From Ralstonia soli (GTDB lineage: Bacteria; Pseudomonadota; Gammaproteobacteria; Burkholderiales; Burkholderiaceae): a stretch of DNA of 64,000 nt. The stretch lies in assembly GCF_023955655.1 (NCBI RefSeq), contig NZ_JAMXHT010000003.1, forward strand, positions 372,001-436,000, given 5' to 3'. The notes below the pieces were generated by a model. The model saw only the letters and a program-made list of their open reading frames with translations, was not told the DNA's origin and did not search any database. Positions 7,830 to 57,158 of this stretch are shown one piece after another (position 1 is the first letter of the stretch; the number at the start of each line of letters is the position of its first letter). The position numbers were made by a program, and so were the translations under genes.

Positions 7830-7852
7830 CGCCGAATTCTCCGGCCGCATGT

Positions 7853-8494: not shown

Positions 8495-8540
8495 GGCAGG
8501 AAGTGCACGGACGGCACCGTCGATCGACGCATGCTAAAAC

Positions 8541-8795
8541 TTAGGCAGCTGCCTTCTTGGCGCCTTGCTTCACCAGACGGGCAACCGTCGGCGACAGTTG
8601 CGCGCCCACGCCTTCCCAGTAGGTCAGGCGGTCTTGCACGATGCGCAGACCTTCTTCGCCTTCACCGGCGAGCGGGTTGTAGAAACCGACGCGCTCGATG
8701 AAACGGCCATCACGGCGGTTACGCGAGTCGGTCGCAACGATATTGAAGAACGGGCGCTTCTTGGAGCCACCGCGGGCCAGACGGATCACGACCAT
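8541..8795 (-). CDS. rpsP: 30S ribosomal protein S16
   Basis: An 84-residue S16: [20 protein letters not shown] at the N-terminus and GFYNPLA in the middle are diagnostic. The start at 8795 is set by AAGGA 8 nt upstream and by the family N-terminus. First gene of the rpsP-rimM-trmD-rplS operon; a promoter with a 17-bp spacer lies 50-75 bp upstream. Confidence 0.98.
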
Positions 8796-8820
8796 GGATC
8801 TTTTCCTTGAAAAACTGGGT

Positions 8821-10014
8821 ATGCGTACAGAGAAACACGCAAGTATAGCGCAATTTTGCCGGCCAAACAAACACTTAGACCCGACGCGCGCGTATCGCGG
8901 CCGGCGCGCGTGGGGTGGGCAGTACGCGCGGGCCGCGATTGTGCTCGCAGCGTGGCTCGGGCTGGCGCACCCGACCGCGGCCAAGCTGCCTGTCGAAACG
9001 CTCCACGTTCCGCCCGGCTTTCACGTCGATGTATTGACCGATGCGATGCCGGACGCACGCGAAATGGCGCTCTCCCCGTCCGGCATGCTTTATGTGGGCA
9101 GCCGCGCGGGAAAGGTCTATGCGATGTCGCTGCAGACGCCGAATGCGCCGGTGCACGTGGTGGCGTCAGGGCTGCAGCTACCCGTGGGCGTGGCTTGGCG
9201 TGACGGCAACCTGTATGTGTCTGCGGTATCGCGCATCGTGCGGCTGGATGGTATCGACAAACGCGTCACCCACCCTCCGGAACCCGTCGTCGTAAATGAC
9301 AAGCTGCCGACCGAGACGCAACACGGCTGGAAATTCATCGCATTCGGGCCGGATGGCAAGCTGTATGTGCCGGTGGGTGCGCCTTGCAACATCTGCCGGC
9401 CCGACGAGAACCGCTACGCCAACATCATGCGCATGAACACCAACGGCAGCGGCCTTGAGCTCGTGGCGCGTGGCATCCGCAACACGGTCGGCTTCGACTG
9501 GCACCCGGTCACGCACGAGCTGTGGTTCACCGACAACGGCCGCGACATGATGGGCGACGACGTGCCGGATGACGAACTCAATCGCATCTCCCGGCCGAAC
9601 CCGCACTTCGGCTATCCGTTTTGCCACGCTGGCGACATCCCTGACCCTGAATTCGGCGCCGGACATCCATGCAGCGACTATGAGCCGCCCGCTGGCAAGC
9701 TGGGGGCGCACGTCGCGGCGCTCGGCATGCGGTTCTATACGGGGAGCAGCTATCCGGCGGAATACCGCAACAATGTCTTCATTGCCGAGCACGGGTCGTG
9801 GAATCGATCGTCCAAAGTCGGGTACCGCGTGGTGCGCGTGGTGCTCAACGATACCGGCAAGGTGGCAAAGCAGGAGCCTTTCGCACAAGGCTGGCTGCAA
9901 GGTGAACGCGCATGGGGCCGCCCGGCCGATGTGCTTGTCGCACCCGACGGCAGCTTGCTCGTATCGGACGATCTGGCCGGGGCGGTGTATCGCATTCGCT
10001 ACACAGGAAAATGA
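8821..10014 (+). CDS. Secreted PQQ-dependent-type sugar (glucose/sorbosone) dehydrogenase-like protein
   Basis: A beta-propeller protein of the GDH-B/sorbosone dehydrogenase family. Residues after a hydrophobic segment ending LGLAHPTAA form the mature protein. [55 protein letters not shown] and [12 protein letters not shown] are typical propeller motifs. The visible Cys pairs (CNIC, CHAGD...HPC) suggest an exported disulfide-containing enzyme. The sugar substrate is unknown. Start uncertain: the ATG at 8821 gives a long signal region and overlaps the rpsP promoter; an ATG at 8794 is also in frame, and the only later candidate, GTG 8941, leaves too short a signal peptide. Confidence 0.8.
8842..8870 (-). 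promoter_or_regulatory. Sigma-70-type promoter of the rpsP operon
   Basis: Read leftward: TTGTTT (8865-8870), a 17-bp spacer, TATACT (8842-8847). Transcription would start near 8835 and give a leader of about 40 nt before rpsP. It lies inside the 5' end of the opposite-strand sugar-dehydrogenase reading frame, so that gene's true start is uncertain. Confidence 0.7.
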
Positions 10015-10207
10015 CGCAGGCGCCGCCTACCGGGTGGGCAAAGCGTGCGGGAAACATCTCGTTACATGGGTAACGTTCGGACAGTGGATGCGTGGTAGGT
10101 GAAGCCTTACATTGACAGACATGAACACGCGCCGCCGACCTCTCTCTCACCCCCCTGAAGCAGGCGGTGCGTGGCGCTTTCGAATCCTTGCCCGACAGGA
10201 GAAAGTC

Positions 10208-10600
10208 ATGCCGATCCGCGCATTGCTTCGCCCCCTGGCGGCAGGCGTTCTGATCGTCGCCTCTGCGGGCGCTCTGGCTGCCAACGCATCGGCGCGTCAG
10301 GCCGCCGTCGCCTTTGCAGAACCCGCCATGCCAGCGTGGACACAAGCCGACGCTGCGCGCCCCGCACGTCCGCTGGTGGCGCAGATGTTCTTCGTTGAAT
10401 CCCGAGGCGAACAGGCCGCCCGCATCCGCGCGCAGATGGAACGCATGGAAGCGCGCGCCCGCGCGGACGATCGGCTCAATGGGCGTGTGCAGCCCCACGA
10501 GGGCGGGGGGCGCGGCGACTGGCAACAGCAGGAACGCATGCGCCAGGAGCGCGGCAACGGCGATCAGGGCGGCAACTGGCGCGGCTCGCGCCGGGGCTAA
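10208..10600 (+). CDS. Small secreted Arg/Gln/Gly-rich protein, function unknown
   Basis: A 130-residue protein with a clear signal peptide (MPIRALLRPLAAGVLIVASA, cleavage after ALAANA or ASA). The mature part has a short helix rich in RAQMERMEARARAD and a low-complexity Gly/Arg/Gln tail (GGGRGDWQQQERMRQERGN). AGGAGA 5-10 nt before the ATG at 10208 sets the start. I do not recognise a family. It stands alone between the sugar-dehydrogenase-like gene and the TM2 gene. Confidence 0.7.
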   Translation: MPIRALLRPLAAGVLIVASAGALAANASARQAAVAFAEPAMPAWTQADAARPARPLVAQMFFVESRGEQAARIRAQMERMEARARADDRLNGRVQPHEGGGRGDWQQQERMRQERGNGDQGGNWRGSRRG

Positions 10601-10764
10601 ACAACCTATTCGCCACGCCCGGCTGCAATTTGGCGCCCCTTCTTCCCTTTGCTGATGCGTCTTTAGGACGCGCTCCCGACGTCGCGATCTGGCTGCGTGG
10701 CGCTTCGTGTTGGGCGTAGAATGCGCGGCGCTGTGTTGTCTTGCCGTGTGTTCTACGCCCTGCC

Positions 10765-11220
10765 ATGTCTACGACCGCTCTCCAAAAAAAATCCAAGCTC
10801 CTGACCGTATTGCTCGCCTTCCTGTTCGGGAGCGTGGGCGCGCATCGCTTCTACCTCAAGGGCGGACGCGACTTCTGGGCGTGGTCGCAGGTGCTTGCCA
10901 TGGTGCTCGGCGCGATTGGTGTGGCGTTGCTGTGGTCCACGCAGCGTGCGAGCGTGCCGGGTTGGGTCTGCGCGATCATCGGCGGGGCTTCGGTGCTGGC
11001 GGGGTTTCTATCGGCGCTGGTGTACGGGCTTCGCCCTGACGACAAATGGGATGCGCAATTTAATGCCAACGGCACGCCCACGCGCTCAGGCTGGCCGGTC
11101 GTTCTATTGACCATCCTCACACTGATGATCGGCACCGGCATGCTCATGGCCGGCCTCGCCATCACGTTCCAGACCTACTTCGAAACACAGGTACAGGCGG
11201 CGAAGGAGCTGTCGCAGTAA
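10765..11220 (+). CDS. TM2 domain-containing membrane protein
   Basis: 151 residues. The N-terminal FLFGSVGAHRFYLKGGRDFW is the TM2 signature (two helices joined by a GxxGxHRFYLG-like turn), followed by two further hydrophobic pairs (VPGWVCAIIGGASVLAGFLSA; VVLLTILTLMIGTGMLMAGLA), so about four membrane helices in all. A TAGAAT hexamer at 10717-10722 could be its -10. Its stop directly abuts the stop of the converging radical SAM gene. Function unknown. Confidence 0.8.
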   Translation: MSTTALQKKSKLLTVLLAFLFGSVGAHRFYLKGGRDFWAWSQVLAMVLGAIGVALLWSTQRASVPGWVCAIIGGASVLAGFLSALVYGLRPDDKWDAQFNANGTPTRSGWPVVLLTILTLMIGTGMLMAGLAITFQTYFETQVQAAKELSQ

Positions 11221-12345
11221 TCAGAACAAACTGCCCTGGCGCTCATCGACAGGCTTTCTCGGTTTGGCAGCGCGTGCGGGCGGTTTGAACTGAGACGTGT
11301 CGAGCACGAGTTCGTTGTAGCGGTGGTAGTTGAAGCCGAGCTTGTCGGCCGTCTTGTAGAAGCGCTGCCGCAGCAGGTCTGCCCAGATGCCGGTGCCGCG
11401 CATGCGCGTGGCGAAATCCGCCTTGTAGTCTTGGCCGCCGTGCAGATCGCGGATGCGGTTCATCACGCGTTGCGCGCGATCTGGGAAATGCGCCGTCAGC
11501 CAATCCTGGAATACGGCGTTCAACTCATTCGGCAGGCGCAGCACGATGTAGCTAGCGTAGGTTGCGCCCGCCTCGCGCGCGGCTTCCAGAATCTGCTCCA
11601 TGTGGTCGTCGGTGATGAAGGGGATCATCGGCGCCACGCTCACCCCTACCGGAATGCCCGCTTCCGCCAGCGTGCGGATCGTGCGCAGGCGACGCGATGG
11701 CGTGGCCGCGCGCGGTTCCAGTTTGCGCGCCAATTCCGAATCGAGTGTGGTGATCGTCACCGCTGCGACGACGAGGCTCTTGGCGGCCATCGGTGCGAGC
11801 AGATCGATGTCGCGTTCGATCAACGATGACTTAGTGATGAGCCCAACCGGGTGATCGCAATCGTGCAGCACCTGCAGCACATCACGCGTGATGCGCAGCT
11901 CGCGCTCGATGGGTTGATACGCGTCGGTGTTCACGCCGAGCGCGATCGCCTCACACCGGTAGCCGGGCTTGGCCAGCGTTTCGCGCAGCACCTCGGCGGC
12001 ATTGGTCTTGGCGAATAGCTTGGTCTCGAAATCCAGCCCCGGTGACAACTCCAGATACGCATGCGTGGGCCGCGCAAAGCAGTACACGCACCCGTGCTCG
12101 CAACCGCGATACGGATTGAGCGACACACCAAACGGAATGTCCGGCGATTGGTTGTGGCTCAGGATCGACCGCGCACGCTCGATGGAGACGCTCGTCTGCA
12201 GGCGCGGTGGCGCATCGTCGGTATCCAATTGACCAACGAGCGGCTGCCAGCCGTCATCGACGCGCGTGCGTTCGTCGCGTTCAAAACGACCTTGTAGATT
12301 GGAAGTGGCGCCGCGCCCCTTGCGAGGAACGTGGCGGTCGGACAT
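11221..12345 (-). CDS. PA0069-family radical SAM protein
   Basis: A radical S-adenosylmethionine protein related to spore photoproduct lyase-like SplB but assigned to the PA0069 group. The [4Fe-4S]-binding motif CEHGCVYC (C-x3-C-x2-C) is near residue 77, preceded by NPYRGCEHG and followed by RPTHAYLELSPGLDFETKLF, a stretch typical of this group. 374 residues; the ATG at 12345 is preferred over a TTG at 12354. Substrate unknown; cytosolic. Confidence 0.88.
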   Translation of the reverse strand: MSDRHVPRKGRGATSNLQGRFERDERTRVDDGWQPLVGQLDTDDAPPRLQTSVSIERARSILSHNQSPDIPFGVSLNPYRGCEHGCVYCFARPTHAYLELSPGLDFETKLFAKTNAAEVLRETLAKPGYRCEAIALGVNTDAYQPIERELRITRDVLQVLHDCDHPVGLITKSSLIERDIDLLAPMAAKSLVVAAVTITTLDSELARKLEPRAATPSRRLRTIRTLAEAGIPVGVSVAPMIPFITDDHMEQILEAAREAGATYASYIVLRLPNELNAVFQDWLTAHFPDRAQRVMNRIRDLHGGQDYKADFATRMRGTGIWADLLRQRFYKTADKLGFNYHRYNELVLDTSQFKPPARAAKPRKPVDERQGSLF

Positions 12346-12427
12346 ATCGGGCAAAGCGCAGTGGAATCGGATGCGAGGGCCTGTCGATGCTATCGCATCC
12401 GCTTCCGTTCCGCTGGCGTGGCGCCGA

Positions 12428-14047
12428 CTACGCTTCGGGGTCGAGCTTCACTTCCCAGAGCGATTTTCCGTCGAGGTCGTGCAGCGACACATGCATCGTG
12501 CGCGTGGCCGGGTCGATCTTCGCGCGGCCGTAGTACTGCTGCAGCGCGGCGGGGGACTGGTTTTGCGGATTGTCCTTGGGAATGCTGATGTAGCGCAGGT
12601 CCGGCCCGAAGGTCTGGTCCACTTCGTTCGGCCCAAACGTGCCCGCGTTGATCGGCCCACCAACGAATTCCCAGAATGGCTTGAATTCCGTGAACTTGGC
12701 GCGCGACGGGTGGTAGTACGTGGCCTGCGCGTAGTGCACATCAGCAGTCACCCACACCACGTTCTGGATGTTCTCCTGCTTGATGAAGCGCAGGATCTCG
12801 GCCAGTTCCAGCTCGCGGCCGGACGGTGCGCCGTCATCGGCATTGGCCCACGCTTCATAGGTGCCTTTGGGCACGTCCGGGTTCAGGTCGGGCACCACCA
12901 GCGAGATCGGCATGTCGCTGGCAATCACCTTCCACGTCGCCTTCGACTGCTTGAGCGATTGCTTGAGCCACGCCGTCTGCTTCGGGCCGAGGAAGGCGGC
13001 GTCGGCATCCAGCGTGGTCTGACGGTTCGGCGAGTTGCGGCCGCGATAGCTGCGCTCGTCCAGCATGAACACGTCGAGCAGCGGGCCGTACTGGAAGGCG
13101 CGGTAAATCTGCTCCGGGTCAACCGGGTTGAAGCGGAACGGGTTGTACTCGAACATCGCCTGCTTCGCGCGGGCCGCCAGTACCGTGGCACTGCGCTCCT
13201 GATAGCGCTTCTCTTGCGGGCCGATCTGCTGCCCGGGGTACCAGTTGTTGCGCACTTCGTGGTCGTCCCACTGCACGAGGAACGGCACTTCGGCAGCAAA
13301 GCGGCGCTTGTTCTTGTCGAGCTGGTTGTAGGCAAAGGCGCCGCGGTAGTCATCCAGCGTCTGCGCGACGTGCGACTTCGCTTCGGTGACGAGGTTGGTC
13401 CACAGCGAGCCATCCGGCAGCTTCACCTCGGCCTGGATCGGGCCATCGGCGTAGATCTGATCGCCGGAGTGGATGAAGAAGTCGGGCGATTCGCGGCGCA
13501 TCGCCTCGTACAGGCGATAGCCGCCGAAGCGCTCGTTGATGCCCCAGCCCTGCCCAGCCTCATCGCCGGAGAACACGAAGCAGATCGGGCGATTGGCTTG
13601 AACGGGTGCCGTGCGGAAGCGGCCGGTGATGGGCTCGCTGAACGCCTTGTTGTGCACCGAATCCTGGAAACGCACGCGATAGAACAGGTCGGCACCGGCA
13701 GGCAAACCCGTGAGGTCGACACGTGCGGTGAAACCGCTGGCTTCAGTGGCCGCCGGGCCAACACGGCGCACGACTTTCTTGAAGGCGGCATCGGTCGAAT
13801 ACTCGACGATCGTGCGCGCGAGGCGGTCGGTGCGGCTCCACACGATGGCGCTGTCGGCGGTGATATCGCCGCTCATCACGCCACTGGGCAATTGCGGGCG
13901 CAGGCGCTCGGAAGTCACCGCAGCGGGCGCTACGCCTTGCGCCAACACCTCGCCGATGCGCGAGCCGAGCAGCGCGGCGCCCCCGGTTGAAACGATGCCC
14001 TTGATGAGCGTGCGGCGGGTCGACTTGAAGATCGGCTGGTCAGACAT
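12428..14047 (-). CDS. phoD: Tat-exported alkaline phosphatase D family protein (PhoD-like)
   Basis: A predicted periplasmic Ca/Fe-type phosphodiesterase/phosphatase. The N-terminus has a twin-arginine signal (STRRTLIKGIVSTGGAALLG). The PhoD N-terminal beta-domain is followed by the metallophosphatase core with FVFSGDEAGQGW, FFIHSGDQIYAD, QWDDHEVRNNW and WVTADVHYAQ, which carry the metal-binding Asp/Asn/His residues. 539 residues, full length. It is flanked by the radical SAM and Lrp-type genes on the same strand but separated from both, so probably a single-gene unit. Confidence 0.9.
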   Translation of the reverse strand: MSDQPIFKSTRRTLIKGIVSTGGAALLGSRIGEVLAQGVAPAAVTSERLRPQLPSGVMSGDITADSAIVWSRTDRLARTIVEYSTDAAFKKVVRRVGPAATEASGFTARVDLTGLPAGADLFYRVRFQDSVHNKAFSEPITGRFRTAPVQANRPICFVFSGDEAGQGWGINERFGGYRLYEAMRRESPDFFIHSGDQIYADGPIQAEVKLPDGSLWTNLVTEAKSHVAQTLDDYRGAFAYNQLDKNKRRFAAEVPFLVQWDDHEVRNNWYPGQQIGPQEKRYQERSATVLAARAKQAMFEYNPFRFNPVDPEQIYRAFQYGPLLDVFMLDERSYRGRNSPNRQTTLDADAAFLGPKQTAWLKQSLKQSKATWKVIASDMPISLVVPDLNPDVPKGTYEAWANADDGAPSGRELELAEILRFIKQENIQNVVWVTADVHYAQATYYHPSRAKFTEFKPFWEFVGGPINAGTFGPNEVDQTFGPDLRYISIPKDNPQNQSPAALQQYYGRAKIDPATRTMHVSLHDLDGKSLWEVKLDPEA

Positions 14048-14123
14048 GGGGGCTCCGGTACGGGTGGAAACGTCGCGGGCCAGCCTAAGTGGTTTTCGTG
14101 ACAGCGTTAGGTCACCAACCCGG

Positions 14124-14621
14124 TCACGCGTCCGCTTCCGTCACGTCGATGGCGAGCGTCTCCTTGATCTCTTCCATCACGATGTAGCTCTTGGACTGCA
14201 CCGCGCCCGGTAGCTGCAGCAGGATGTCGCCGAGCAAGCGCCGGTATTCGCTCATCTCGCGGATGCGCGCCTTGATGAGGTAATCGAAATCGCCCGAGAC
14301 GAGGTGGCACTCCAGCACCTCGGGAATGCGCAGCACCTCGCGCCGGAACTGCTCGAACATATTGCCGGCCTTGCTGCCCAGGCTGATCTCTACAAACACG
14401 AGCAGTGAGGCGCCCAGCATGGCCGGATTCAGCCGCGCGTAGTACCCAAGGATGAAGCCCTCGCGCTCCAGGCGTTTGACGCGTTCGATGCACGGGGTGA
14501 TGGTCAAGCCGACCGCCTCGGACAGGTCTTTCATCGACAGTCGACCGTCCTTCTGCAGCAGGTCGAGGATGCGGCGGTCGAGCTTGTCGAGGGCCCGGAC
14601 GGGCTTGCGTTGGGTTCGCAT
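14124..14621 (-). CDS. Lrp/AsnC family transcriptional regulator, likely regulator of dadA
   Basis: 165 residues. The N-terminal helix-turn-helix is LDRRILDLLQKDGRLSMKDLSEAVGLTITPCIERVKRL, and the C-terminal RAM ligand domain includes VLECHLVSGDFDYLIKARI. It is transcribed away from dadA, 121 bp apart, with a perfect inverted repeat between them. Lrp-type regulators next to dadA (DadR/Lrp) activate it in response to alanine or leucine, so this one probably controls D-amino acid catabolism. Confidence 0.9.
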   Translation of the reverse strand: MRTQRKPVRALDKLDRRILDLLQKDGRLSMKDLSEAVGLTITPCIERVKRLEREGFILGYYARLNPAMLGASLLVFVEISLGSKAGNMFEQFRREVLRIPEVLECHLVSGDFDYLIKARIREMSEYRRLLGDILLQLPGAVQSKSYIVMEEIKETLAIDVTEADA

Positions 14622-14696
14622 GAGGCAAAACGCTCCAAAACCAGAGTTATTGCTGTTTCAATGAAATATACAGAAACAATGACTGGCTATGTGCGA

Positions 14697-14720
14697 ATAC
14701 GATAGCGACATCTATCGTAT
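14697..14720. promoter_or_regulatory. Perfect inverted repeat, probable Lrp/AsnC operator before dadA
   Basis: ATACGATAG and CTATCGTAT are exact reverse complements separated by 6 bp. The repeat ends 22 bp before the dadA ATG, where RNA polymerase would bind. A second, looser inverted repeat (TGTTTC 14654-14659 / GAAACA 14673-14678) lies closer to the regulator gene. Confidence 0.6.
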
Positions 14721-14742
14721 ATGCATCTCCGGGGAGTATCAC

Positions 14743-16032
14743 ATGCGCGTGCTCGTTCTTGGTAGCGGCGTGATCGGCGTGACCAGCGCCTATTACCTGG
14801 CCCGCGCGGGCCATGAAGTCACCGTCGTCGACCGCGAAGCCGGTCCGGCGCTGGAGACCAGCTTTGCCAACGCTGGCCAGATCTCCCCGGGCTATGCATC
14901 GCCGTGGGCCGCGCCGGGCGTGCCGCTCAAGGCCATCAAGTGGATGTTCCAAGAGCACGCGCCGCTCACCATCCGCCCCGATGGCACCCTCTTCCAGCTC
15001 AAGTGGATGTGGCAGATGCTGCGCAACTGCGACGCCGCCAGCTACGCGCAAAACAAGGAGCGCATGGTGCGCCTGGCGGAATACAGCCGCGACTGCATCC
15101 GCGACCTGCGCGCCGACACCGGCATCGCCTACGAAGGCCGCCAGCAGGGCACGCTGCAAATCTTCCGTACCCAGCAGCAGCTCGACGGCGCCGCGAACGA
15201 CATCGCCGTGCTCGAGCGCGCTGGCGTGCCCTACGAACTGCTTTCGCGCGAAGACCTCGTGCGCAGTGAACCAGGCCTGGCCTCGACCCGCCACAAGCTG
15301 GCCGGTGGCCTGCGCCTACCCAATGACGAAACGGGCGATTGCCAGCTCTTCACCACGCGCTTGGCCGCGATGGCTGAACAGTTGGGCGTGCGCTTCCATT
15401 TCAACCGCACCATCAATAGCCTGATCTTCAAGAACGAGGCCGTGCGCGGCGCGCTGGTCGACGGGCAGCCGATGGAAGCCGACCTCGTGGTCGTGGCGCT
15501 GGGCAGCTACAGCTCGCCGTTCCTGAAGAACCTGGTGAACGTGCCGGTGTATCCGCTCAAGGGTTTCTCGATCACCGTGCCGATGACGGATGCTGAAAAG
15601 AGCCCCGTCTCCACCATCCTGGACGAGACCTACAAGGTGGCCGTGACCCGCTTTGACGACCGGATCCGCGTGGGCGGCATGGCGCAGATCGTCGGCTACG
15701 ACAAGCGCCTGGACCCGGGCAAGCGCAAGACGCTGGAGTTTGTCGTCAACGATCTGTTCCCGGGCGCGGGCGATGTGTCGCGCGCTTCGTTCTGGACGGG
15801 CCTGCGCCCCATGACGCCGGACGGCACGCCGATCGTCGGCCAGACGCCGGTGCGCGGCCTGTGGCTCAACACGGGCCACGGCACGCTGGGTTGGACCATG
15901 GCGTGCGGCTCGGGCAAGCTGCTGTCGGATCTAGTGTCGGGCCGCTCGCCGGCTATCCGTGCGGACGATCTGTCGGTATATCGCTATATGGGCGGTGCTC
16001 CGATGCCTGCAGGCAAGCCTGCGCTGGCCTGA
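14743..16032 (+). CDS. dadA: D-amino acid dehydrogenase, small subunit DadA
   Basis: A membrane-associated FAD enzyme that oxidises D-amino acids (mainly D-alanine) to keto acids, passing electrons to the respiratory chain. The N-terminus [20 protein letters not shown] is the dinucleotide-binding fold; [21 protein letters not shown] is a DadA hallmark; the C-terminal [20 protein letters not shown] is the second FAD-contacting region. 429 residues. GGGGAG at 14731-14736 sets the ATG at 14743. No alanine racemase gene follows; a terminator comes straight after. Confidence 0.95.
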
Positions 16033-49859: not shown

Positions 49860-50217
49860 GGGGCCGACCTGGTTTCGACGTGGGTTGCGAAGCAGTGGAG
49901 GGCATACCGAGGACCCGTCACCTCGTTAATCAATGGGAATGCAATAACTGCTAACGACGAACGTTACGCACTGGCAGCCTAAGGGCCGCCGTCCTCGCAC
50001 TGGCTCGCTGACGGGCTAGGGTCGCAAGACTAGCGAGGTCATTTACGTCAGATAAGCTTCAGGTGAGTCACGGGCCTGGAGACGAAAACCTAGTGAATCG
50101 CCGTCGTAGAGCGTGTTCGTCCGCGATGCGGCGGTTAAATCAAATGACAGAACTAAGTATGTAGAACTCTCTGTGGAGGGCTTGCGGACGCGGGTTCGAT
50201 TCCCGCCGGCTCCACCA
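49860..50217 (+). ncRNA. ssrA: Transfer-messenger RNA (tmRNA)
   Basis: Rescues stalled ribosomes and tags the nascent chain for proteolysis. The 5' GGGGCCG pairs with CGGCTCC before the encoded CCA, forming the acceptor stem; GGTTCGATTC is the T-loop. The tag frame at 49950-49982 encodes ANDERYALAA followed by a stop. About 358 nt. The last 17 nt are duplicated at 56881-56897, and a tyrosine recombinase gene follows 98 bp on: the 3' end is the attachment site of an integrated element, which leaves the tmRNA intact. Confidence 0.98.
50201..50217 (+). repeat. attL core: 17-bp repeat at the ssrA 3' end
   Basis: TCCCGCCGGCTCCACCA, identical to 56881-56897. It covers the tmRNA 3' acceptor arm and CCA, a common target for tyrosine recombinases. 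Confidence 0.92.
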
Positions 50218-50282
50218 TCACCTTCCCTCGAAGCATTGAGGGACAAGCAGTAACGGTCATTTGCGCGTTCGGTTTTGGGTAT

Positions 50283-50304
50283 GTGTCCCAAATGGGTGTC
50301 CCAA
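50283..50304 (+). repeat. Two direct copies of GTGTCCCAA, candidate integrase arm sites
   Basis: Copies at 50283-50291 and 50296-50304, 13 bp apart, just inside the left border and before the integrase ATG. A third copy lies near the right border at 56788-56796. Confidence 0.5.
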
Positions 50305-50314
50305 CCGAACGTCA

Positions 50315-51871
50315 ATGGCTTACAGACTCCCTGCGCACCTGCGCCGGAACCGCTACGGCACGCTGTATTTCCGGCTGTCGATCCCGGCGGACCTTCAGGC
50401 AGACTTCCACCAAAACGAGCTTTACCGGAGTCTCGGCACGGCTAGCGTGCGCGAGGCGACGCTTATCGCGCATCATCTGTATGTGACGATAAGTCGAATC
50501 TTTGTGGAATTGCAGCAGATGGATGCAGAGGACCGAAAAAAGGCAGCAGACGCGGCGCTAAAGGCGCTCAAGACCTCCCCTGGCCTGCGGGACAGGATGC
50601 GCGTTGAACGGCTCCAGCGGGCGCTCCGAGAACAGGAGGCTGAACTGGACCGCCGGGAGTGGGAAATCGTCGGAATCGAGGAACGCCACTCGATCGAAGT
50701 GAAAGCACTGAACGGAGCGATTGGTCGCCTTGCTTCCGGCAGCACGACAACCGTCCCGCCTTCCCGCCCGCTAACGGACGCCATCGCTGCCTACATCGAG
50801 GAGAAGACGACCCGCGCCCGCTGGACGAACAAGACACTCGAAAAACGGCAACACTGGTTCCGGCTGTTTCAACAGTTCATGGGCGAACGTCTGGGCCACG
50901 AACCGCGCCTGAAGGAGATCGACCGCGCGGCGTGTGTCTCTTTCCTGAGCCTTCTGCAAAAGCTGCCGCCAAATATGACAAAGAACCACGCTGGCCGCCC
51001 TCTGGACGAGGTGGCAGCACTCGGACTACCTCCGATGGCTGCGGCCAGCATAAACGGCATCTTGGGCTTCCTGAGCGGATTCTTCGACTGGTGCAAGGAG
51101 AACCCGGCGTTCAAGATCGACCACAACCCGGCATACAAGCTCTCAATCGATGAGAGTGGCACCAAGCAACTTCGAGCGTTCAGGGATGAGGAGCTTGTGG
51201 CCCTGCTCAGTTCACCTGCGTTCAGGTCAAAGACGTTCCTGCACCCCTACCACTACTGGATCATTCCAATGGCCTTGCACACCGGCGCGCGCCTCGGGGA
51301 GCTGTGTCAACTTGGACTTTCGGACATCATCGAGGTGAACGGCGTGCCCTGTATTGATATCAACGACGAGGAGGAGAAGGCGCTCAAGAATCGCAACGCC
51401 AAGCGCTTAGTGCCGATTCATTCGTGCCTGATCGAGATGGGGCTATTGCGCTACGTGGCGGCCCTGCGTCAGCGCGGCGAGACGCGCCTGTTTCCTGAAA
51501 TCAACCTTTCGATCAGCGCCAGCCACGACGCCTCGAACTGGTTCAATGACAAGCGCCGATACAGCGACTCCTGCGGCGTCACCGATCCGGAAACTAACTT
51601 CCACTCGTTCCGGCGAACGTTCATCACTCGAACGATCAAGAAAGATGGCGGAGGCTCAGCACACCCGCACGATGTAGCGCCCATCGTTGGACATGAGCAC
51701 GGGTTGATAACGATGGACGTTTACTTCGATGACAAGGACGATGCCGCAGAGCGCCGCGAAACCGTCGAGAAATTCCGGCTGCCGCCTGCCGCCCTATCCA
51801 TCATTCCGCCGATTGAAGACGTCTCCTTCGGCACACGTCCGCCACGCCAACGACGAGCCGCCCGATCTTAA
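50315..51871 (+). CDS. int: Tyrosine-family site-specific integrase
   Basis: 518 residues from the ATG at 50315; an in-frame TTG at 50261 is less likely. N-terminal MAYRLPAHLRRNRYGTLYFR resembles a DUF6538-type DNA-binding region; a coiled coil (about 70-125) and a core-binding domain follow. Catalytic set in order: Arg326 (TGARLGEL), His430 and Arg433 (HSFRRTF), His460 (VGHEHG), Tyr470 (MDVYFDD), so it looks active. Located next to attL, as island integrases usually are. No promoter of its own is obvious; readthrough from ssrA is possible. Confidence 0.93.
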   Translation: MAYRLPAHLRRNRYGTLYFRLSIPADLQADFHQNELYRSLGTASVREATLIAHHLYVTISRIFVELQQMDAEDRKKAADAALKALKTSPGLRDRMRVERLQRALREQEAELDRREWEIVGIEERHSIEVKALNGAIGRLASGSTTTVPPSRPLTDAIAAYIEEKTTRARWTNKTLEKRQHWFRLFQQFMGERLGHEPRLKEIDRAACVSFLSLLQKLPPNMTKNHAGRPLDEVAALGLPPMAAASINGILGFLSGFFDWCKENPAFKIDHNPAYKLSIDESGTKQLRAFRDEELVALLSSPAFRSKTFLHPYHYWIIPMALHTGARLGELCQLGLSDIIEVNGVPCIDINDEEEKALKNRNAKRLVPIHSCLIEMGLLRYVAALRQRGETRLFPEINLSISASHDASNWFNDKRRYSDSCGVTDPETNFHSFRRTFITRTIKKDGGGSAHPHDVAPIVGHEHGLITMDVYFDDKDDAAERRETVEKFRLPPAALSIIPPIEDVSFGTRPPRQRRAARS

Positions 51872-51974
51872 TCTGTGGGTAAGTCCTCGACCGTTCAACT
51901 TGCTCAGAAATTGCCAATCCAGCAGAGCTCTCTCAAACAGGCGGAGCGCACGAGCCACACTGGTTTTCGGCAAC

Positions 51975-52003
51975 AAAAAAGGGCGCTGTGTGCGCCCTTT
52001 TTT
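51975..52003. terminator. Bidirectional terminator after int
   Basis: Stem GGGCGC/GCGCCC, TGTGT loop, six A on the left and six T on the right. It ends int (+) and the 53-residue gene (-). Confidence 0.93.
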
Positions 52004-52019
52004 CTCAACCAAGAGTAGC

Positions 52020-52181
52020 TTACGCGGCTTTAGCCATCGGGCAAGCCTGCTCCAGAAGTCGCGTCAAGCGGTCGGCCTCAGCTTCCATCAGCTGCGTAGC
52101 CTTCACAAGCTCACGCAGCATGCCGAGCATTTCGCCCTTGCTACCGGTCGAGTGGAGGAACGTAACTTTCTGATGTGCCAT
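52020..52181 (-). CDS. Small helical protein of 53 residues, function unknown
   Basis: Starts MAHQKVTFLHSTGSKGEMLG; the rest (LRELVKATQLMEAEADRLTRLLEQ) is one amphipathic, coiled-coil-prone helix. AAGGTGAT 5-10 nt before the ATG at 52181 is a good ribosome-binding site, which supports a real gene despite its size. It is 37 bp downstream of the 122-residue gene on the same strand, so probably its partner, and is followed by a terminator. I do not recognise a family. Confidence 0.6.
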   Translation of the reverse strand: MAHQKVTFLHSTGSKGEMLGMLRELVKATQLMEAEADRLTRLLEQACPMAKAA

Positions 52182-52218
52182 TTCGATCACCTTTAGTCGT
52201 GGGCGGGGTCGTATGTTT

Positions 52219-52587
52219 CTAGAATGCTGCTTGATTTTGTAGCTTCTCAACTTCTTCGTTGTAGAGCGCTTCGTCATCAGCAGCTAGGGCTGCCGCTACA
52301 GCCTCCAATTGCGAGACTTGCTTCTTCGCGTTCAACAAGAGCCGGACATTTTCCGGTCCCAGATCAACTCCTGGGTTACTCAAGTGACTGATGATGGTGT
52401 CGAGCATTCCCGACACAACGCCCATCGAGCTCAGAAGCTGATGAATATTCGGGTTTTCGATGAGTTGGATGCCGTGGAACCCATACAGCTTCGAGTTCGC
52501 AATCACAGTATTGCTTACCCCGAAAATTCGCTCCCAAGCTTCGGTAACGAACTTCGTAGCCTGTTTCTTGAAGTCTTCCTCTGTCAT
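52219..52587 (-). CDS. Hypothetical helical protein of 122 residues
   Basis: MTEEDFKKQATKFVTEAWER begins an all-helical, acidic, soluble protein with no signal peptide. The C-terminus LLLNAKKQVSQLEAVAAALAADDEALYNEEVEKLQ looks coiled-coil. Transcribed with the 53-residue gene. Codon use is less GC-biased than the flanking core genes, which fits acquired DNA. No family recognised; a two-gene unit like this could be a regulatory or toxin-antitoxin pair, but no motif shows it. Confidence 0.55.
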   Translation of the reverse strand: MTEEDFKKQATKFVTEAWERIFGVSNTVIANSKLYGFHGIQLIENPNIHQLLSSMGVVSGMLDTIISHLSNPGVDLGPENVRLLLNAKKQVSQLEAVAAALAADDEALYNEEVEKLQNQAAF

Positions 52588-52952
52588 AGCACCGTTCTAT
52601 CGCGGTTAGGGAAAACTTCCCCAAACCAGTGATTGTAACGGAACCACCACCAATCTACAAGCGAAGACTCCCCTGTTACTTCTAATATGCACTACTTGGA
52701 TGAAAAATCAAGCCATCAACCGCACACAATTTCCGTAGATGAAACGGAAGTCACTTTCGATGCGTTGACACGATCATCCTGCTTCCATGCAGATATCGGC
52801 ATCAGCGAGCGACTCTTGAGCCGCCGCTCCCGCCCAAAGTGGGCGTCAGCCGAGGCGCCTGAGCCTAGACGATCGATGCACCTTAGCAACAGACACGGCT
52901 TTCCACGATACCACAGCTCAGCGTTCCGGGCTGGACTCCCAGAAAGTGCGGC
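52588..52952. other. 365-bp island segment with no supportable gene
   Basis: AT-richer on its left, then GC-richer. It holds a small hairpin (CGCCCA AAG TGGGCG, 52831-52845). A rightward open frame of 135 codons crosses it but overlaps the recombinase gene antisense and looks spurious. It could contain recombination sites for the serine recombinase; I see no clear pair. Confidence 0.4.
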
Positions 52953-53630
52953 TCAGCCGTCATTTAGCACCGCTGGGATACGTGCCAACACGCGCTGCAA
53001 CTGCGCAAGGTGCCAATCGCCGCCCTTCGGCGTCCTTATCCCCAGCCGATTCAACTCCTCTACCATCCGGCGCTGTGACAACCCTGCGGCCTGATAACCA
53101 CGCAGGGTTTGGGCAAGACCGGATGCAAATACGTCGGCCGCGACCATCCGCTCTGCAACGTTCCCCCGCAGGTTTTCGGGTTTGCCGAGCTTCACGCCTC
53201 GCGCCTTTGCCGCTGCAAGCGCATCCTTTGTCCGCTGGCTGATCCGTTTGGCTTCGTGTTCTGCGAATGCCGCCATGATGTGAATCGTCAATTCGTTCGC
53301 TTCCGGCATGTCGCAGGCCAGGAACCGCACCTTGCTCTCCATCAGCCCCGACACGAAGTGAACATTCCGGGCTAGACGATCAAGCTTGGCTATTAGCAAC
53401 GTTGCGCCATGCTTCCGGCAGGCGTCCATCGCCGCCCGGAGTCGGGCGCGCTTTCCGAGTGCATCTGCACCCTTGCCCGACTCGTGCTCCTCAAACTCTG
53501 CTAACAACTCCCACTGCCCGCCGCTCAGATACCGAGTGACGGCCTCCCGCTGCGCATCCATCCCTAGACCACTCTGACCTTGCTTCGCTGTGCTGACCCG
53601 GTAGTAAGCGATGAACTTGCCATTTGCCAT
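52953..53630 (-). CDS. Serine recombinase (resolvase/invertase family)
   Basis: 225 residues. The N-terminal catalytic domain starts MANGKFIAYYRVSTAKQGQS, with nucleophile Ser13 in YRVST; LLIAKLDRLARNVHFVSGLM and AAFAEHEAKRISQRTKDAL are the conserved arginine and dimer-helix regions. A short C-terminal helix-turn-helix (GYQAAGLSQRRMVEELNRLGI) would bind DNA. No large recombinase domain, so it is of the small resolvase type. A 16-bp palindrome lies 15 bp before the start and may be its own operator. Confidence 0.9.
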   Translation of the reverse strand: MANGKFIAYYRVSTAKQGQSGLGMDAQREAVTRYLSGGQWELLAEFEEHESGKGADALGKRARLRAAMDACRKHGATLLIAKLDRLARNVHFVSGLMESKVRFLACDMPEANELTIHIMAAFAEHEAKRISQRTKDALAAAKARGVKLGKPENLRGNVAERMVAADVFASGLAQTLRGYQAAGLSQRRMVEELNRLGIRTPKGGDWHLAQLQRVLARIPAVLNDG

Positions 53631-53644
53631 GTCTGACCTCGTTG

Positions 53645-53660
53645 TTGAACGAACGTTCAA
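53645..53660. repeat. 16-bp palindrome upstream of the serine recombinase
   Basis: TTGAACG-AA-CGTTCAA, perfect 7+2+7. Likely an operator or recombinase-binding half-site pair. Confidence 0.6.
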
Positions 53661-53690
53661 TATGAGGTCATGCTACACGGAGTTCACATA

Positions 53691-53720
53691 TTGCGCAACG
53701 GAGTTACTCCAGAGTATTAT
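53691..53720 (+). promoter_or_regulatory. Promoter of the ribbon-helix-helix operon
   Basis: TTGCGC (53691-53696), 18-bp spacer, TATTAT (53715-53720). The start would be near 53727, inside the inverted repeat below, with AGGAG before the ATG at 53755. Confidence 0.5.
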
Positions 53721-53722
53721 TC

Positions 53723-53740
53723 GTGTCCCACTAGAGACAC
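53723..53740. promoter_or_regulatory. Inverted repeat GTGTC-N8-GACAC, candidate operator
   Basis: Lies between the -10 and the ribosome-binding site of the first gene in the operon, where an autoregulator would block transcription. Confidence 0.4.
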
Positions 53741-53754
53741 ATAGGAGTTAACAT

Positions 53755-54105
53755 ATGTCAGTTTTGACTGATCACGTCATTGATATGCCGTCCAAGAAAC
53801 CACGCCTTAACCTGACGCTCGACGAAGACACCATGGCGCTTCTGCGTTGGCTGTCCGCTGCGACGAACGTGCCGGAAACCAGCATTGTCAACAAGCTGTT
53901 GTCCTCCCATCTGTCCGAACTTTGGGAGTATCGAACGTGGCTCGAACAGCTCCCGAAAGACAACGAGCGGTTAAATATGTTGGGCGTCAATCTGCTGGTC
54001 TCCTACGGCCCCGATGACCTAGTTGCTGGCCTGAAGCGGCTGGACCCGGCATACGAGACCATGGAAGAAAAGATGGCGCGCGCCCTCAAGGGGGAATCCA
54101 AATGA
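53755..54105 (+). CDS. Ribbon-helix-helix-like protein, probable autoregulator
   Basis: 116 residues. Residues 15-55 (PRLNLTLDEDTMALLRWLSA, then TNVPETSIVNKLLSSHL) show the pattern of an RHH DNA-binding unit: a basic beta strand followed by two helices. A helical C-terminus (YETMEEKMARALKGES) may mediate dimer or partner contacts. AGGAG before the ATG. First gene of a three-gene operon; the stop overlaps the next start by 4 bp. Could be an antitoxin-type regulator, but no toxin is recognisable. Confidence 0.6.
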   Translation: MSVLTDHVIDMPSKKPRLNLTLDEDTMALLRWLSAATNVPETSIVNKLLSSHLSELWEYRTWLEQLPKDNERLNMLGVNLLVSYGPDDLVAGLKRLDPAYETMEEKMARALKGESK

Positions 54106-54398
54106 GTCACGCCGAATTTGACGCGCTGGCCGACAGTCGTATGCAGGAGCGACAGGCCATGAACAACCCGGCGCAATGGGGGCCATTCACGGGCGACGGC
54201 TACTATCCCGTCAACGACGAGCAACTAGCCGATACGCTGGTTGGCGCCGATATCGTCATCGCCGAAGACCGTTTCACCTCGTTTGCTTACATGGAAGGCT
54301 ATCTCTCGCCTGAGCGAGGCTCAAAGCCGTTCTTCGCGATCAAGGACCGCACACCCGGCGAAGTGCATTTGCTGTCCGTTCCCGGCGCAAATGAATAG
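54102..54398 (+). CDS. Hypothetical protein of 98 residues
   Basis: Translationally coupled to the RHH-like gene (ATGA overlap). Sequence begins MSHAEFDALADSRMQERQAM; the middle has FTGDGYYPVNDEQLADTLVG and the end DRTPGEVHLLSVPGANE. Soluble, acidic, mixed alpha/beta by appearance; no signal peptide, no known motif. Its position between a regulator and a larger unknown gene suggests the three work together. Confidence 0.55.
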   Translation: MSHAEFDALADSRMQERQAMNNPAQWGPFTGDGYYPVNDEQLADTLVGADIVIAEDRFTSFAYMEGYLSPERGSKPFFAIKDRTPGEVHLLSVPGANE

Positions 54399-54403
54399 CC
54401 GCC

Positions 54404-55225
54404 ATGCTCGAACCCCTGTCATCCGTGCTGGCGCGGCAAACACCGGGCACGCTCGAACGCGCCCGAAGCATCATCCAGCCGTGTGACCGTGAACGGCTGA
54501 TCGGCATGTATCGCAACGCGTTTGCGACGCAGCAGCGAACCAAGGCATTCTTGCTGGCGGAAGCCCTCACGATTCATCGCCTGCCACCGTGTCTTCGGTT
54601 CGCACATCCACCGCCCGTTCGCCCGCTTACGGTCGATCAACAGCTTGATCTATTCGCCCACGACATCCAGTGGCTCGCAGGACAGCACGCTGCACAACGC
54701 CGTGCTGTCACCGGCAAACGCTACACGCGCTTGTTTGATGAATTCATCTGCCCCGATGAGTTCGAGTGGGTGCGCGAGGCGGAATACTGGTTCAACAACG
54801 GCGAACGCGACCAGTGGGTTATCGTGCGCGGGTTGGCTTTGTCAGAGCGACAGCAATGGGAATGCAAGTGGTTGCGCTCGCCCGTTGTCAGTCGGAAAGC
54901 AGATGCCCTCGCCGAGCGTCGAGATACGGTCTACAAGGCAATCATGTTGCACCTACCCAAGACCAGCCGGACGATGGATACGGATGCAGCCAAAGCGGTC
55001 TTGACCCGCCGATTTCGGGTTTGGCTATGCGGCCAGATGACGCGAGATGGAGGTCGGGTTAGCCCCGCTGCTGCCGCTCGACTCTACGCCATGTGGACCG
55101 GCGACGCGATCGACAGGGGCACGGCCGGCAAGGCGCTGGATTGGCTAGAAACGAACATCCCCGAATCTCGCAATCGCAGACATGGCGGCGCACGTAGCGG
55201 CGAGATCGCCATCTCGAACGTATGA
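54404..55225 (+). CDS. Hypothetical protein of 273 residues, island cargo
   Basis: Five bases after the previous stop, so in the same operon. A basic, Arg/Trp-rich protein without signal peptide or membrane segment: RYTRLFDEFICPDEFEWVRE, YWFNNGERDQWVIVRGLALS, RQQWECKWLRSP, AAAARLYAMWTGDAIDRGTA. The basic tail (ESRNRRHGGARSGE) could bind nucleic acid. I do not recognise a family; replication-initiator and nuclease motifs were looked for by eye and not seen. Confidence 0.6.
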   Translation: MLEPLSSVLARQTPGTLERARSIIQPCDRERLIGMYRNAFATQQRTKAFLLAEALTIHRLPPCLRFAHPPPVRPLTVDQQLDLFAHDIQWLAGQHAAQRRAVTGKRYTRLFDEFICPDEFEWVREAEYWFNNGERDQWVIVRGLALSERQQWECKWLRSPVVSRKADALAERRDTVYKAIMLHLPKTSRTMDTDAAKAVLTRRFRVWLCGQMTRDGGRVSPAAAARLYAMWTGDAIDRGTAGKALDWLETNIPESRNRRHGGARSGEIAISNV

Positions 55226-55564
55226 GCAATATGGGCATCCCTCCCAATCCACAGGATTGGGGGTGCATAGCCGGCTTTTCAAAACGTCCCAAAGCCAATG
55301 CACGTAAGGCTTTGCGTGCCCTCTGAAGGGTCCACACCCTGAAGCACACTGAAGGGTCCACGCAATAGACCAGAAATACGCCCGACTGCGGACCCTTCCC
55401 GACGTTTTTCGTGGACTCTTCTACCCTGCCCCTCCGGTAGCGGCCACACCTGTCCTATCTGCCAGCCGTTGCAGACGATGCCGAATACATGACCGACCCC
55501 CACGAGCGCACAGCTCCTTTTGCGATCGTCGGCCACTACGTGCGTATCGAAAACGCTTAGCCAG
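55226..55564. other. 339-bp gap with repeated GAAGGGTCC motif
   Basis: No gene seen. A hairpin (CCCAATCC ACA GGATTGGG, 55243-55261) follows the 273-residue gene. GAAGGGTCC occurs at 55325-55333 and 55351-55359 as direct copies and inverted at 55390-55398. It could be a protein-binding region or an old origin or transfer site. Confidence 0.5.
55325..55398. repeat. Three-copy GAAGGGTCC motif
   Basis: Two direct copies inside a 13-bp repeat CTGAAGGGTCCAC, 26 bp apart, plus one inverted copy. Confidence 0.5.
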
Positions 55565-55948
55565 TTACTTGTAGGGCATGCCAATCGAACCGCAGGCTTC
55601 CGCCAAAGCGTCAAACACAATGAGGTGCATGCCGTCGCCCCATGCTACAGGCCGAGCGTCGAGGTAGCGATCTACGATGGCGGTCAGTTGAACGTCCGTC
55701 GCACGCATCGCATCAACGCACTTCCCTAACATCTGCTCCCTGGCGAGGTCGCGGAATGCAAAGATCGGCGACATGAACATGCCGTCAATCACGCCCATCA
55801 CATACGCACGGCGCATCAGGTCAGGCAATTCGCGATAGTGAGTGCCCGTCACAAACGGATTGTGAATGTGGACGGGCGGCGGAGGGGACTGCGCGAAAGA
55901 AGCGGTGCCCAGAATCAACAAGGCTGCTGCCGCAAGTAGCTTTCTCAT
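55565..55948 (-). CDS. Exported protein with Rap1a/Tai-like character
   Basis: 127 residues. Signal peptide MRKLLAAAALLILGTASFAQ; then HIHNPFVTGTHYRELPDLMR, RRAYVMGVIDGMFM, CVDAMRATDVQLTAIVDRYL and ALAEACG. The 'YVxGVxDG ... C ... YL ... C' layout with two cysteines resembles the Rap1a/Tai immunity-like fold found in periplasmic proteins. This is an inference from pattern, not a firm family call. Leftward, unlike the operon before it; AT-richer surroundings. Confidence 0.5.
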   Translation of the reverse strand: MRKLLAAAALLILGTASFAQSPPPPVHIHNPFVTGTHYRELPDLMRRAYVMGVIDGMFMSPIFAFRDLAREQMLGKCVDAMRATDVQLTAIVDRYLDARPVAWGDGMHLIVFDALAEACGSIGMPYK

Positions 55949-56162
55949 TGCGATTGTCAGGTGGTCTCGTCGTTTGCTGACTTCTAATTGCGCAAGCCAA
56001 GCAAGCTAATCCTTGAGGCGGAATGGTGTCTCACGCACCGACCGGCAGAAGTTGCTGCCGATTCCAAATGATCCCCTCAAGATACCGCTGTAAGGATATC
56101 CAGTAAGGTTTCCTGAATCATATGTCAGCACGCGTCGGCTCCATCAAAAAGTGGAACCCCTA

Positions 56163-56194
56163 GAAAAAACGCACCTTCTCGATGGGGTGCGTTT
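56163..56194 (-). terminator. Terminator of the 111-residue exported protein gene
   Basis: Stem AAACGCACC/GGTGCGTTT with a 10-nt loop and a T-run leftward. Confidence 0.8.
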
Positions 56195-56232
56195 CGTCAA
56201 CCGGCGCAAGTTTTCGTGGAAACCTTATACCT

Positions 56233-56568
56233 CTATTTCACGTGCTCGATGAACGTCCAGTATTCCACTACGTCTCCACGTCGCCGAATTTTTACCTTCC
56301 CTGTGAAGATGGACGTATCGGTCAATTCGACGCTTTCCCCAACATCAAAGATATCGCACTGGCCATTTGCGAGACCTGCCCCCAGCGCCTTCTTGAAGGC
56401 AACGTTGTCGCGGCTTGCAGAGTAGCCAACTATCTTCCCAAACATTTCCTCGGACTGGCATCCATAGGTCTTCTTTTCTATCCGGTGCGCACTTTGCGCG
56501 CCCGCACTCGCCGCCCATGCCAGAGCCACAATACCCAATGTGACCGAAGTGAAAACTCGTCTCATCAT
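56233..56568 (-). CDS. Exported hypothetical protein of about 111 residues
   Basis: Signal peptide (MMRRVFTSVTLGIVALAWAA, cut after SAGA). The mature part has a Cys pair (YGCQSEEMFG and ANGQCDIF) and a beta-rich C-terminus (VELTDTSIFTGKVKIRRRGD). Two adjacent ATGs (56568, 56565); GAGG is best spaced for the second. No family recognised. It is the last gene before the right border of the island. Confidence 0.55.
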   Translation of the reverse strand: MMRRVFTSVTLGIVALAWAASAGAQSAHRIEKKTYGCQSEEMFGKIVGYSASRDNVAFKKALGAGLANGQCDIFDVGESVELTDTSIFTGKVKIRRRGDVVEYWTFIEHVK

Positions 56569-56787
56569 CGTCCTCGTCAGTCTTCTTGGCGTCGTTATCA
56601 GATACGCAAATGCCGCTACCCTCGGCGCCGGACAATCGTATCGAGCCAGTCATCATGTCGCCTACCCAACGACCGGAGGGCTAAGCATGGCCTTTGCACT
56701 CGGCCTTTATTCGATTCCTCGTTCCTCAATCGAACTAAAACCGCAACCGTGACGCCTCACCCTCCGTGCTAGACTCGCCCCACTCAA

Positions 56788-56796
56788 GTGTCCCAA
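56788..56796 (+). repeat. Third GTGTCCCAA copy, candidate arm site
   Basis: Same orientation as the two copies at the left end; 85 bp inside attR. Confidence 0.4.
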
Positions 56797-56862
56797 TGTG
56801 GACAGATGCCTTACACACCTACAACCCAAGAACCCGCACGGGTGAACGATTACATGCCTAGT

Positions 56863-56897
56863 TGGTGGAGCCGGTGAACCTCCCGCCGGCTCCACCA
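56863..56897. repeat. 12-bp inverted repeat at the right attachment site
   Basis: TGGTGGAGCCGG (56863-56874) is the exact reverse complement of CCGGCTCCACCA (56886-56897), the last 12 nt of the tmRNA copy, with an 11-bp spacer. Confidence 0.8.
56881..56897 (+). repeat. attR core: second copy of the ssrA 3' end
   Basis: TCCCGCCGGCTCCACCA, identical to 50201-50217. Confidence 0.92.
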
Positions 56898-56933
56898 AAT
56901 TCCGCTCTCAAACGTCTTTGGCGTTTGGCAATG

Positions 56934-56968
56934 AAACCCCGCTGGGCTTGGCTCTGCGGGGTTTTTTT
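56934..56968 (+). terminator. Displaced native ssrA terminator
   Basis: Stem AACCCCGC/GCGGGGTT with a 13-nt loop and seven T, 37 bp after the attR core. With the island removed it would sit about 37 bp after the tmRNA CCA. Confidence 0.85.
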
Positions 56969-57158
56969 GTTGCAAACTTCCCCACGCCATTCCCAGTCAC
57001 GACGCCCCCAATCTCGGCGGCTTTATGGGGAGTTGTCGAACGCCCCCGAAAGCAAAAGACCCGTTCGGGATTGCATCTTTGAGTGGCCTTTCAGCGTTTG
57101 CTTTTGACCGGTTGATCTGTAGCCGAGCACCGTCGTTCAGCCCATATCACGCATCACC

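Follow-up and report, generated by a model that had tools for sequence, protein, structure and literature searches.

P4-like satellites and phage-inducible chromosomal islands (PICIs) combine an integrase, an AlpA-type regulator, and a replication module, and use tRNA or transfer-messenger RNA (tmRNA) genes as integration sites. The phage-inducible chromosomal minimalist islands (PICMIs) of Vibrio are described with a prototype of 6.1 kb and a Vibrionaceae mean of 6.7 kb, and the accessible part of that report places complete PICMIs in Vibrio only (PMC10803314). In the accessible text of a second study, the tmRNA gene ssrA of Pseudomonas fluorescens SBW25 harbors the islands I23, I44, and I55, the last of which is moved by a jumbo phage (PMC12595487). 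A 64-kb stretch of the Ralstonia soli genome (contig NZ_JAMXHT010000003.1, positions 372,001 to 436,000, hereafter the window) carries a 6,680-bp integrated element at the 3' end of ssrA whose outline recalls that of a PICMI, although it does not qualify as one. The event itself, an integration at a tRNA or tmRNA gene, is ordinary; the element is unusual. With a probability of roughly 0.6, it is a minimal, non-autonomous, helper-dependent integrative element of satellite type.

Integration at the 3' end of ssrA

The ssrA gene (49860–50217, plus strand, identified by ARAGORN) serves as attachment gene and is left intact. Its last 17 nt, TCCCGCCGGCTCCACCA, are present in two exact copies within the window, attL (50201–50217, plus strand) and attR (56881–56897, plus strand), with no third copy and none on the opposite strand, which agrees with the repeat noted in the original prediction. 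The chance expectation for a given 17-mer in 128 kb (both strands) is ~1e-5 by our own arithmetic. The distance between the two copies gives the island its length of 6,680 bp, and its GC content is 56.9% compared with 63.4% in the 10 kb to the left and 62.5% in the 7 kb to the right. The complete tyrosine recombinase that had been reported near the left copy was recovered as a full-length open reading frame (ORF) of 518 amino acids (50315–51871, plus strand), with 97 bases separating attL from its ATG. It matches the families Phage_integrase (30.8 bits, cut-off 27.1) and DUF6538 (46.5 bits, cut-off 27) and contains, in order, the arginine (GARLGE), HxxR (HSFRR), and GHxx...Y (VGHEH...MDVY) blocks, which presumably hold the catalytic residues.

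A perfect inverted repeat (56862–56898; TTGGTGGAGCCGG...CCGGCTCCACCAA, 13-nt arms with an 11-nt spacer) ends in attR and is proposed to form the core-site arms of the attachment site. The arms may bind the integrase, with crossover within the spacer regenerating an intact ssrA. Another genus of the family (G280) carries a tmRNA island with a 25-nt repeat 10.2 kb apart; its integrase, which also adjoins the tmRNA gene, is 42% identical to the window integrase over 516 amino acids. GGTGGAGCCGG precedes attR in both islands and the two layouts are similar.

The ssrA locus was compared among 15 congeners (16 genomes with the source genome; 14 out of 15 at least 90% complete). The empty site suggested as a check, joining 50217 to 56898, is present in six of them (G001, G004, G005, G008, G011, and G014), where the sequence that follows attR in the window stands directly after ssrA with 79–92% identity over 87–96 bp. 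This sequence is the native ssrA terminator region (56898–56973, plus strand), displaced by the island. A different sequence follows ssrA in 8 out of 15 congeners, making the junction uninformative, and the remaining congener (G010) carries a different insert of 1.28 kb (L036, ~2808–4090) between ssrA and the native terminator, bounded by a 26-nt copy of the ssrA end. The gene o273 of the island, used as a marker, was found in none of the 15 congeners when all were searched. The att repeat, the empty site in 6 out of 15 congeners, and the failure to find o273 in any of the 15 identify the stretch as an integrated element; empty site, att repeat, and adjacent integrase, the marks of an integrative element that targets tRNA or tmRNA genes, are all present. 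Both flanks had been described as core; the left flank and ssrA align in the congeners, and the right side aligned over the first ~93 bp only.

Several congeners showed other alterations at or near ssrA. The 1.28-kb cassette of G010 contains a single ORF that by eye resembles an acetyltransferase gene, and none long enough to encode an integrase. In G011, ~30 kb of DNA interrupts ssrA behind the first 97 nt of the gene (C1:2385864-2385960 and 2416261-2416521; L025, L019, L021). On its other strand this insert has a nearly full-length but diverged tmRNA match (81%), perhaps a substitute tmRNA delivered by a mobile element. The sole tmRNA match found in G012 (C4:125520-125907, L020) is 77% identical with an upstream flank of 91%, a possible partial replacement of ssrA. 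A second contig of G004 (C529; L022/L037) contains 80 nt from the 3' end of ssrA with a similar terminator behind them, likely the leftover of another ssrA insertion.

Gene content and comparison with described islands

The nine island proteins were tested against family profiles at the cut-off, and no structural, packaging, relaxase or transfer, or known replication family was found among them; nor was a primase-helicase, capsid-size, or terminase gene recognized. The island therefore agrees with the definition of a phage satellite as lacking a complete structural gene set of its own, none being recognized among the nine proteins. The statement that nearly all island genes are unrecognized was mostly right, but it overlooked a small serine resolvase/invertase (52953–53660, minus strand; PF00239, 3.3e-26). 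Between integrase and resolvase lie two ORFs of 85 and 122 amino acids (52020–52277 and 52219–52587, both minus strand) without a family at the cut-off. The resolvase is followed by a ribbon-helix-helix (RHH)-like protein of 116 amino acids (53755–54105, plus strand; family matches below the cut-off), a proposed regulator that overlaps by 4 nt with o98 (54102–54398, plus strand). Together with o273 (54404–55225, plus strand), o98 forms the core of the element (54102–55225). Two genes are proposed as cargo: a Rap1a-like exported protein (55565–55948, minus strand; PF18602 at 19.3 bits, under the cut-off of 27.7) and an ORF of 111 amino acids with a signal-peptide-like start as judged by eye (56233–56568, minus strand).

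Going by the accessible text on PICMIs (PMC10803314), the island shares with them its size, the 17-bp direct repeats, an integrase, a regulator, a small gene, a replication gene (proposed here), and accessory genes, as well as the lack of capsid-remodeling and packaging genes. The relatives of o273 described below, though not the window, also share the ATGA overlap of the integrase and the next gene, which the same text gives as common but not universal in PICMIs. PICMIs integrate at fis and carry a primase, whereas this group of elements uses ssrA or tRNA genes and carries o273. The window copy has an integrase, as PICMIs do, but AlpA was absent from its nine proteins, no primase was found at the cut-off, integration is not at fis, and no gene overlaps the integrase by ATGA; it has instead the RHH-like protein and the serine resolvase. 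With I23, I44, and I55, as far as the accessible account goes (PMC12595487), the island shares a tyrosine integrase just downstream of the tmRNA gene, the lack of recognized transfer genes, and a short direct repeat that matches the 3' terminus of ssrA (in the SBW25 islands it has 14 bp and ends in CCGGCTCCACCA). Those islands are much larger, with a common region of ~18 kb and AlpA at the far end, and o273 is unmentioned in that part of the account. The likeness to P4-like satellites and PICIs lies in the integrase, the AlpA-type regulator (in o273 relatives), the replication module, and the tRNA or tmRNA sites; P4 alpha-type primase/helicase and P4 morphogenesis control genes were not recognized among the island proteins.

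The o98-o273 core in the Burkholderiales

Neither o98 nor o273 has relatives among known families. Matches to o273 were found in 7 out of 398 sampled genomes of the same family (four clear, three weak and partial), 2 out of 399 of the order, and 8 out of 175 of a second family, as well as in four loci of a genome contig collection (three of them already in the same-family sample) and one IMG/VR contig. The weak partial matches in G045, G144, and G309 (E 2e-4 to 8e-4) were dropped before loci were counted. Overall, 16 distinct o273 loci remained (the window, L004, L033/L038, L040, L034/L039, L035/L041, L048, L083–L090, and L091). One of these is a second copy in the source genome (C30, 41% identity), within an island at tRNA-Ala(CGC) (L004, ~7200–14835) in which an AlpA-like gene, an integrase, and genes for several small exported proteins were recognized by eye. 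The o98 protein is 58–60% identical in two other elements and 27% in the C30 element, and relatives of the RHH-like protein (34–37% identity) lie upstream of o273 in L087 and L091.

An integrase together with a tRNA or tmRNA gene at one end was found in 13 out of 16 loci, counting L004, whose integrase was named by eye, and L048, where it lies in two frames; the tRNA genes are of the Ala, Pro, Met, Ser, and Thr types. The three exceptions are a plasmid-like contig of Caballeronia glebae with Rep_3 and a ParA-like ATPase, a disrupted remnant (L035), and L091, which has an integrase but no tRNA gene within the stretch examined. Seven elements with clear repeats measure 5.3, 5.8, ~5.9, 6.2, 6.4, 6.7, and ~8.4 kb, and the L004 island 7.6 kb on a weak 12-bp repeat; the remaining loci showed no convincing boundary repeat within the stretch examined. 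For G890, a size of 5.55 kb given by an imperfect 15-bp repeat was left out of the count. Since elements of similar size share the same core, the small size of the island is normal for the group.

Composed across elements, the gene order is integrase, ATGA-overlapping gene, AlpA- or RHH-like gene, o98-like gene, o273, an ORF of ~55–60 amino acids, the conserved noncoding site described below, and cargo. The exact ATGA overlap occurs in 7 out of 12 loci examined and the ~55–60-amino-acid ORF in L004, L033, L040, L083–L087, and L089–L091; the window has neither. AlpA scored above the cut-off in L040 and L090. Among the cargo of the relatives, SIR2_2/nSTAND (L048) and CAP12-TIR (L086) score above the cut-off and HNH just under it (L040, L089); L091 carries AAA and subtilase genes. 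The window copy, with its DUF6538 integrase, serine resolvase, and RHH-like regulator in place of AlpA, is unusual within the group. No description of a family with this core was found in literature searches of an open-access library, which is no proof of absence. From these comparisons the o273 islands read as a little-known group of small islands in the Burkholderiales, a recurring element type of 5–8 kb, and the PICMI-like gene order of the relatives supports the earlier suggestion that the island is a minimal or satellite-type element.

The o273 protein sits where PICMIs carry a primase, the deletion of which lowers copy number according to the accessible text (PMC10803314), and it is proposed to be a replication initiator because repeats follow the gene in 11 out of 13 loci and because the corresponding slot in a related island is occupied by a Rep_trans-like protein. 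The repeats share a sequence within each element but differ between elements, and often number two or three, spaced 23–26 bp apart, plus an inverted copy; the iteron-like repeats of the window (55318–55398, plus strand) consist of CTGAAGGGTCCAC twice, 26 bp apart, and an inverted GCGGACCCTTC. In the 11 loci (13 of the 16 were tested) the repeat count was reached by at most 12 out of 200 shuffles (8 out of 200 in the window and 0 out of 200 in five loci), these counts being uncorrected for the choice of statistic. The protein encoded ahead of the noncoding site in G280 scores 27.3 bits against Rep_trans (cut-off 29.6). A further genome (G261) resembles the window island in the integrase (40%), the adjacent resolvase (70%), and the Rap1a-like gene (39%), and there the place of o273 is taken by a protein that, by eye only, resembles the Rep_trans-like one of G280. 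Two of the 13 loci fail the repeat test (196 and 198 out of 200 shuffles), and the C30 repeats are not iteron-like on inspection. An AlphaFold2 model of o273 is all-helical (pLDDT 66.6) and gave no meaningful fold match.

The conserved noncoding site and the proposed mode of movement

A conserved noncoding site (56015–56240, plus strand) was found 3' of o273. When the island DNA was compared with its own genome, the site matched only in the second island, where a 142-bp noncoding stretch is 85% identical. A site of ~75 bp lies 3' of o273 in all 16 loci, weakly in five. When 10 further o273 loci were scanned, a model built from five copies detected the site in 8 of them with E no higher than 0.05 (three at 4.3e-5 or better; five weak at 0.008–0.046, two of these covering part of the site), always on the o273 strand and 3' of o273, and matched nothing in the same loci reversed. 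The L035 remnant matched at 1.4e-4, and the two loci missed, L083 and L088, were recovered by a 13-copy model (4e-16 and 1e-12). The kept core reads C(C/T)TAGA followed 56–57 bases on by CTTATAC (counted by hand in the window, L086, and L091), or by CTTACA in some copies; in the window it is CCTAGAAA...CTTATAC at 56159–56230.

The idea that the site is exclusive to o273 elements was dropped, as the 13-copy model also matches four control loci without o273 that the five-copy model leaves unmatched (L055 at 0.04, L056 at 1.1e-5, L057 at 0.002, and L058 at 0.005). The site follows an initiator-like gene in L055 and L057. In L056 and L058 it and the integrase stand on opposite strands, 9 and 15 kb apart, and it could not be assigned to that island. 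Pattern searches of IMG/VR returned 15 distinct loci, of which two are clear. One is the L091 contig; in the other, L100, the site and an AAA-type gene resembling the L091 one come after genes that look, by eye, like phage tail and lysis genes, and the stretch examined contains no o273. Seven more of the 15 reach E 8e-4 or better, although they were chosen by pattern and are not independent, and six have no match. A search of phage records with one copy of the site was empty, as was a search of 72,556 plasmid records with another copy. Within a 109-kb IMG/VR contig (L098, 5110–6859), a weak copy of the site is followed 1.3 kb on by a Rap1a-like gene 30% identical to that of the window, again with no o273 in the stretch examined. 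The site may be a packaging signal, a single-strand origin, or an origin of transfer (oriT).

An alternative is that ssrA captured a cryptic plasmid or a rolling-circle replicon, with the site as a single-strand origin rather than a packaging signal. The single orientation 3' of o273 in every locus except C. glebae, where the site is inverted relative to o273, fits this explanation, as does its occurrence with another initiator type, which is what single-strand origins do. Some copies contain TAGCGT, presumably the CS-6 motif of ssoA, and plasmid-like character is seen in the resolvase as well as in the C. glebae contig. The motif is missing from several copies including that of the window, however, and an integrase with a tRNA or tmRNA gene in 13 out of 16 loci argues for an integrative life, leaving a captured replicon unlikely; the idea bears more on the site than on the element.

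The plasmid-like features could also point to an integrative mobilizable element moved by conjugation, with the site acting as oriT for the relaxase of a helper plasmid or integrative and conjugative element. An inverted repeat before a conserved core is an oriT-like layout, and the C. glebae site has such a repeat, TTTCACAAAGTGAAA, just before the conserved CCTAG; furthermore, at the DNA level, the 17 records related to the resolvase are plasmid genes. The repeat is not kept in most of the 13 aligned copies, though, the nine island proteins include no recognized relaxase, and the search of plasmid records for one site copy was empty, so that conjugation is judged quite unlikely. It is very improbable that the island has decayed from a larger island or prophage and is now a fixed, immobile part of this species. 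The large intergenic gaps, the lack of AlpA and of an integrase-overlapping gene, and the failure to find a close copy would suit such a relic, but the reading frames of integrase, resolvase, o98, and o273 are intact, the two att copies match exactly, and similar-sized elements with the same core exist.

For the helper-dependent satellite, the integrase would recombine the att site of the element with the 3' end of ssrA, restoring its last 17 nt. In response to some trigger, the regulator (RHH-like here, AlpA in several relatives) would turn on o98-o273, o273 would bind the repeats 3' of itself and start replication of the excised circle, and the serine resolvase may resolve multimers. The noncoding site could serve packaging by a helper phage, or replication, for example as a single-strand origin. 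As no structural, packaging, or conjugation gene was recognized, transfer would have to depend on a helper. A phage is the likeliest candidate, judging from PICMIs and I55; a phage-moved ssrA island is known from the accessible account (PMC12595487), which makes phage transfer the best bet. The other genes would be cargo, namely the Rap1a-like and the second exported protein here and the SIR2-STAND and TIR genes in relatives. A bolder version, in which o273 defines a new initiator family of 5–8-kb Burkholderiales phage satellites, interchangeable with a Rep_trans-type protein, and the site is a helper-recognized packaging signal shared by islands with differing integrases and initiators and at least one prophage, is tentative and somewhat doubtful; confidence in it was lowered slightly because the L056 and L058 sites are not tied to an island.

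Complete minimal satellites of the PICMI type are reported only in Vibrio in the accessible text (PMC10803314); if the satellite reading is true, the Burkholderiales have an element type of this kind with an unrecognized replication gene. Such a recurring type would explain some of the "unknown" tRNA and tmRNA islands with defense-like genes, and o273 elements would escape searches keyed on AlpA plus primase. The noncoding site, which accompanies differing integrases and initiators of more than one type, would give a handle on the helper and on how so small an element moves.

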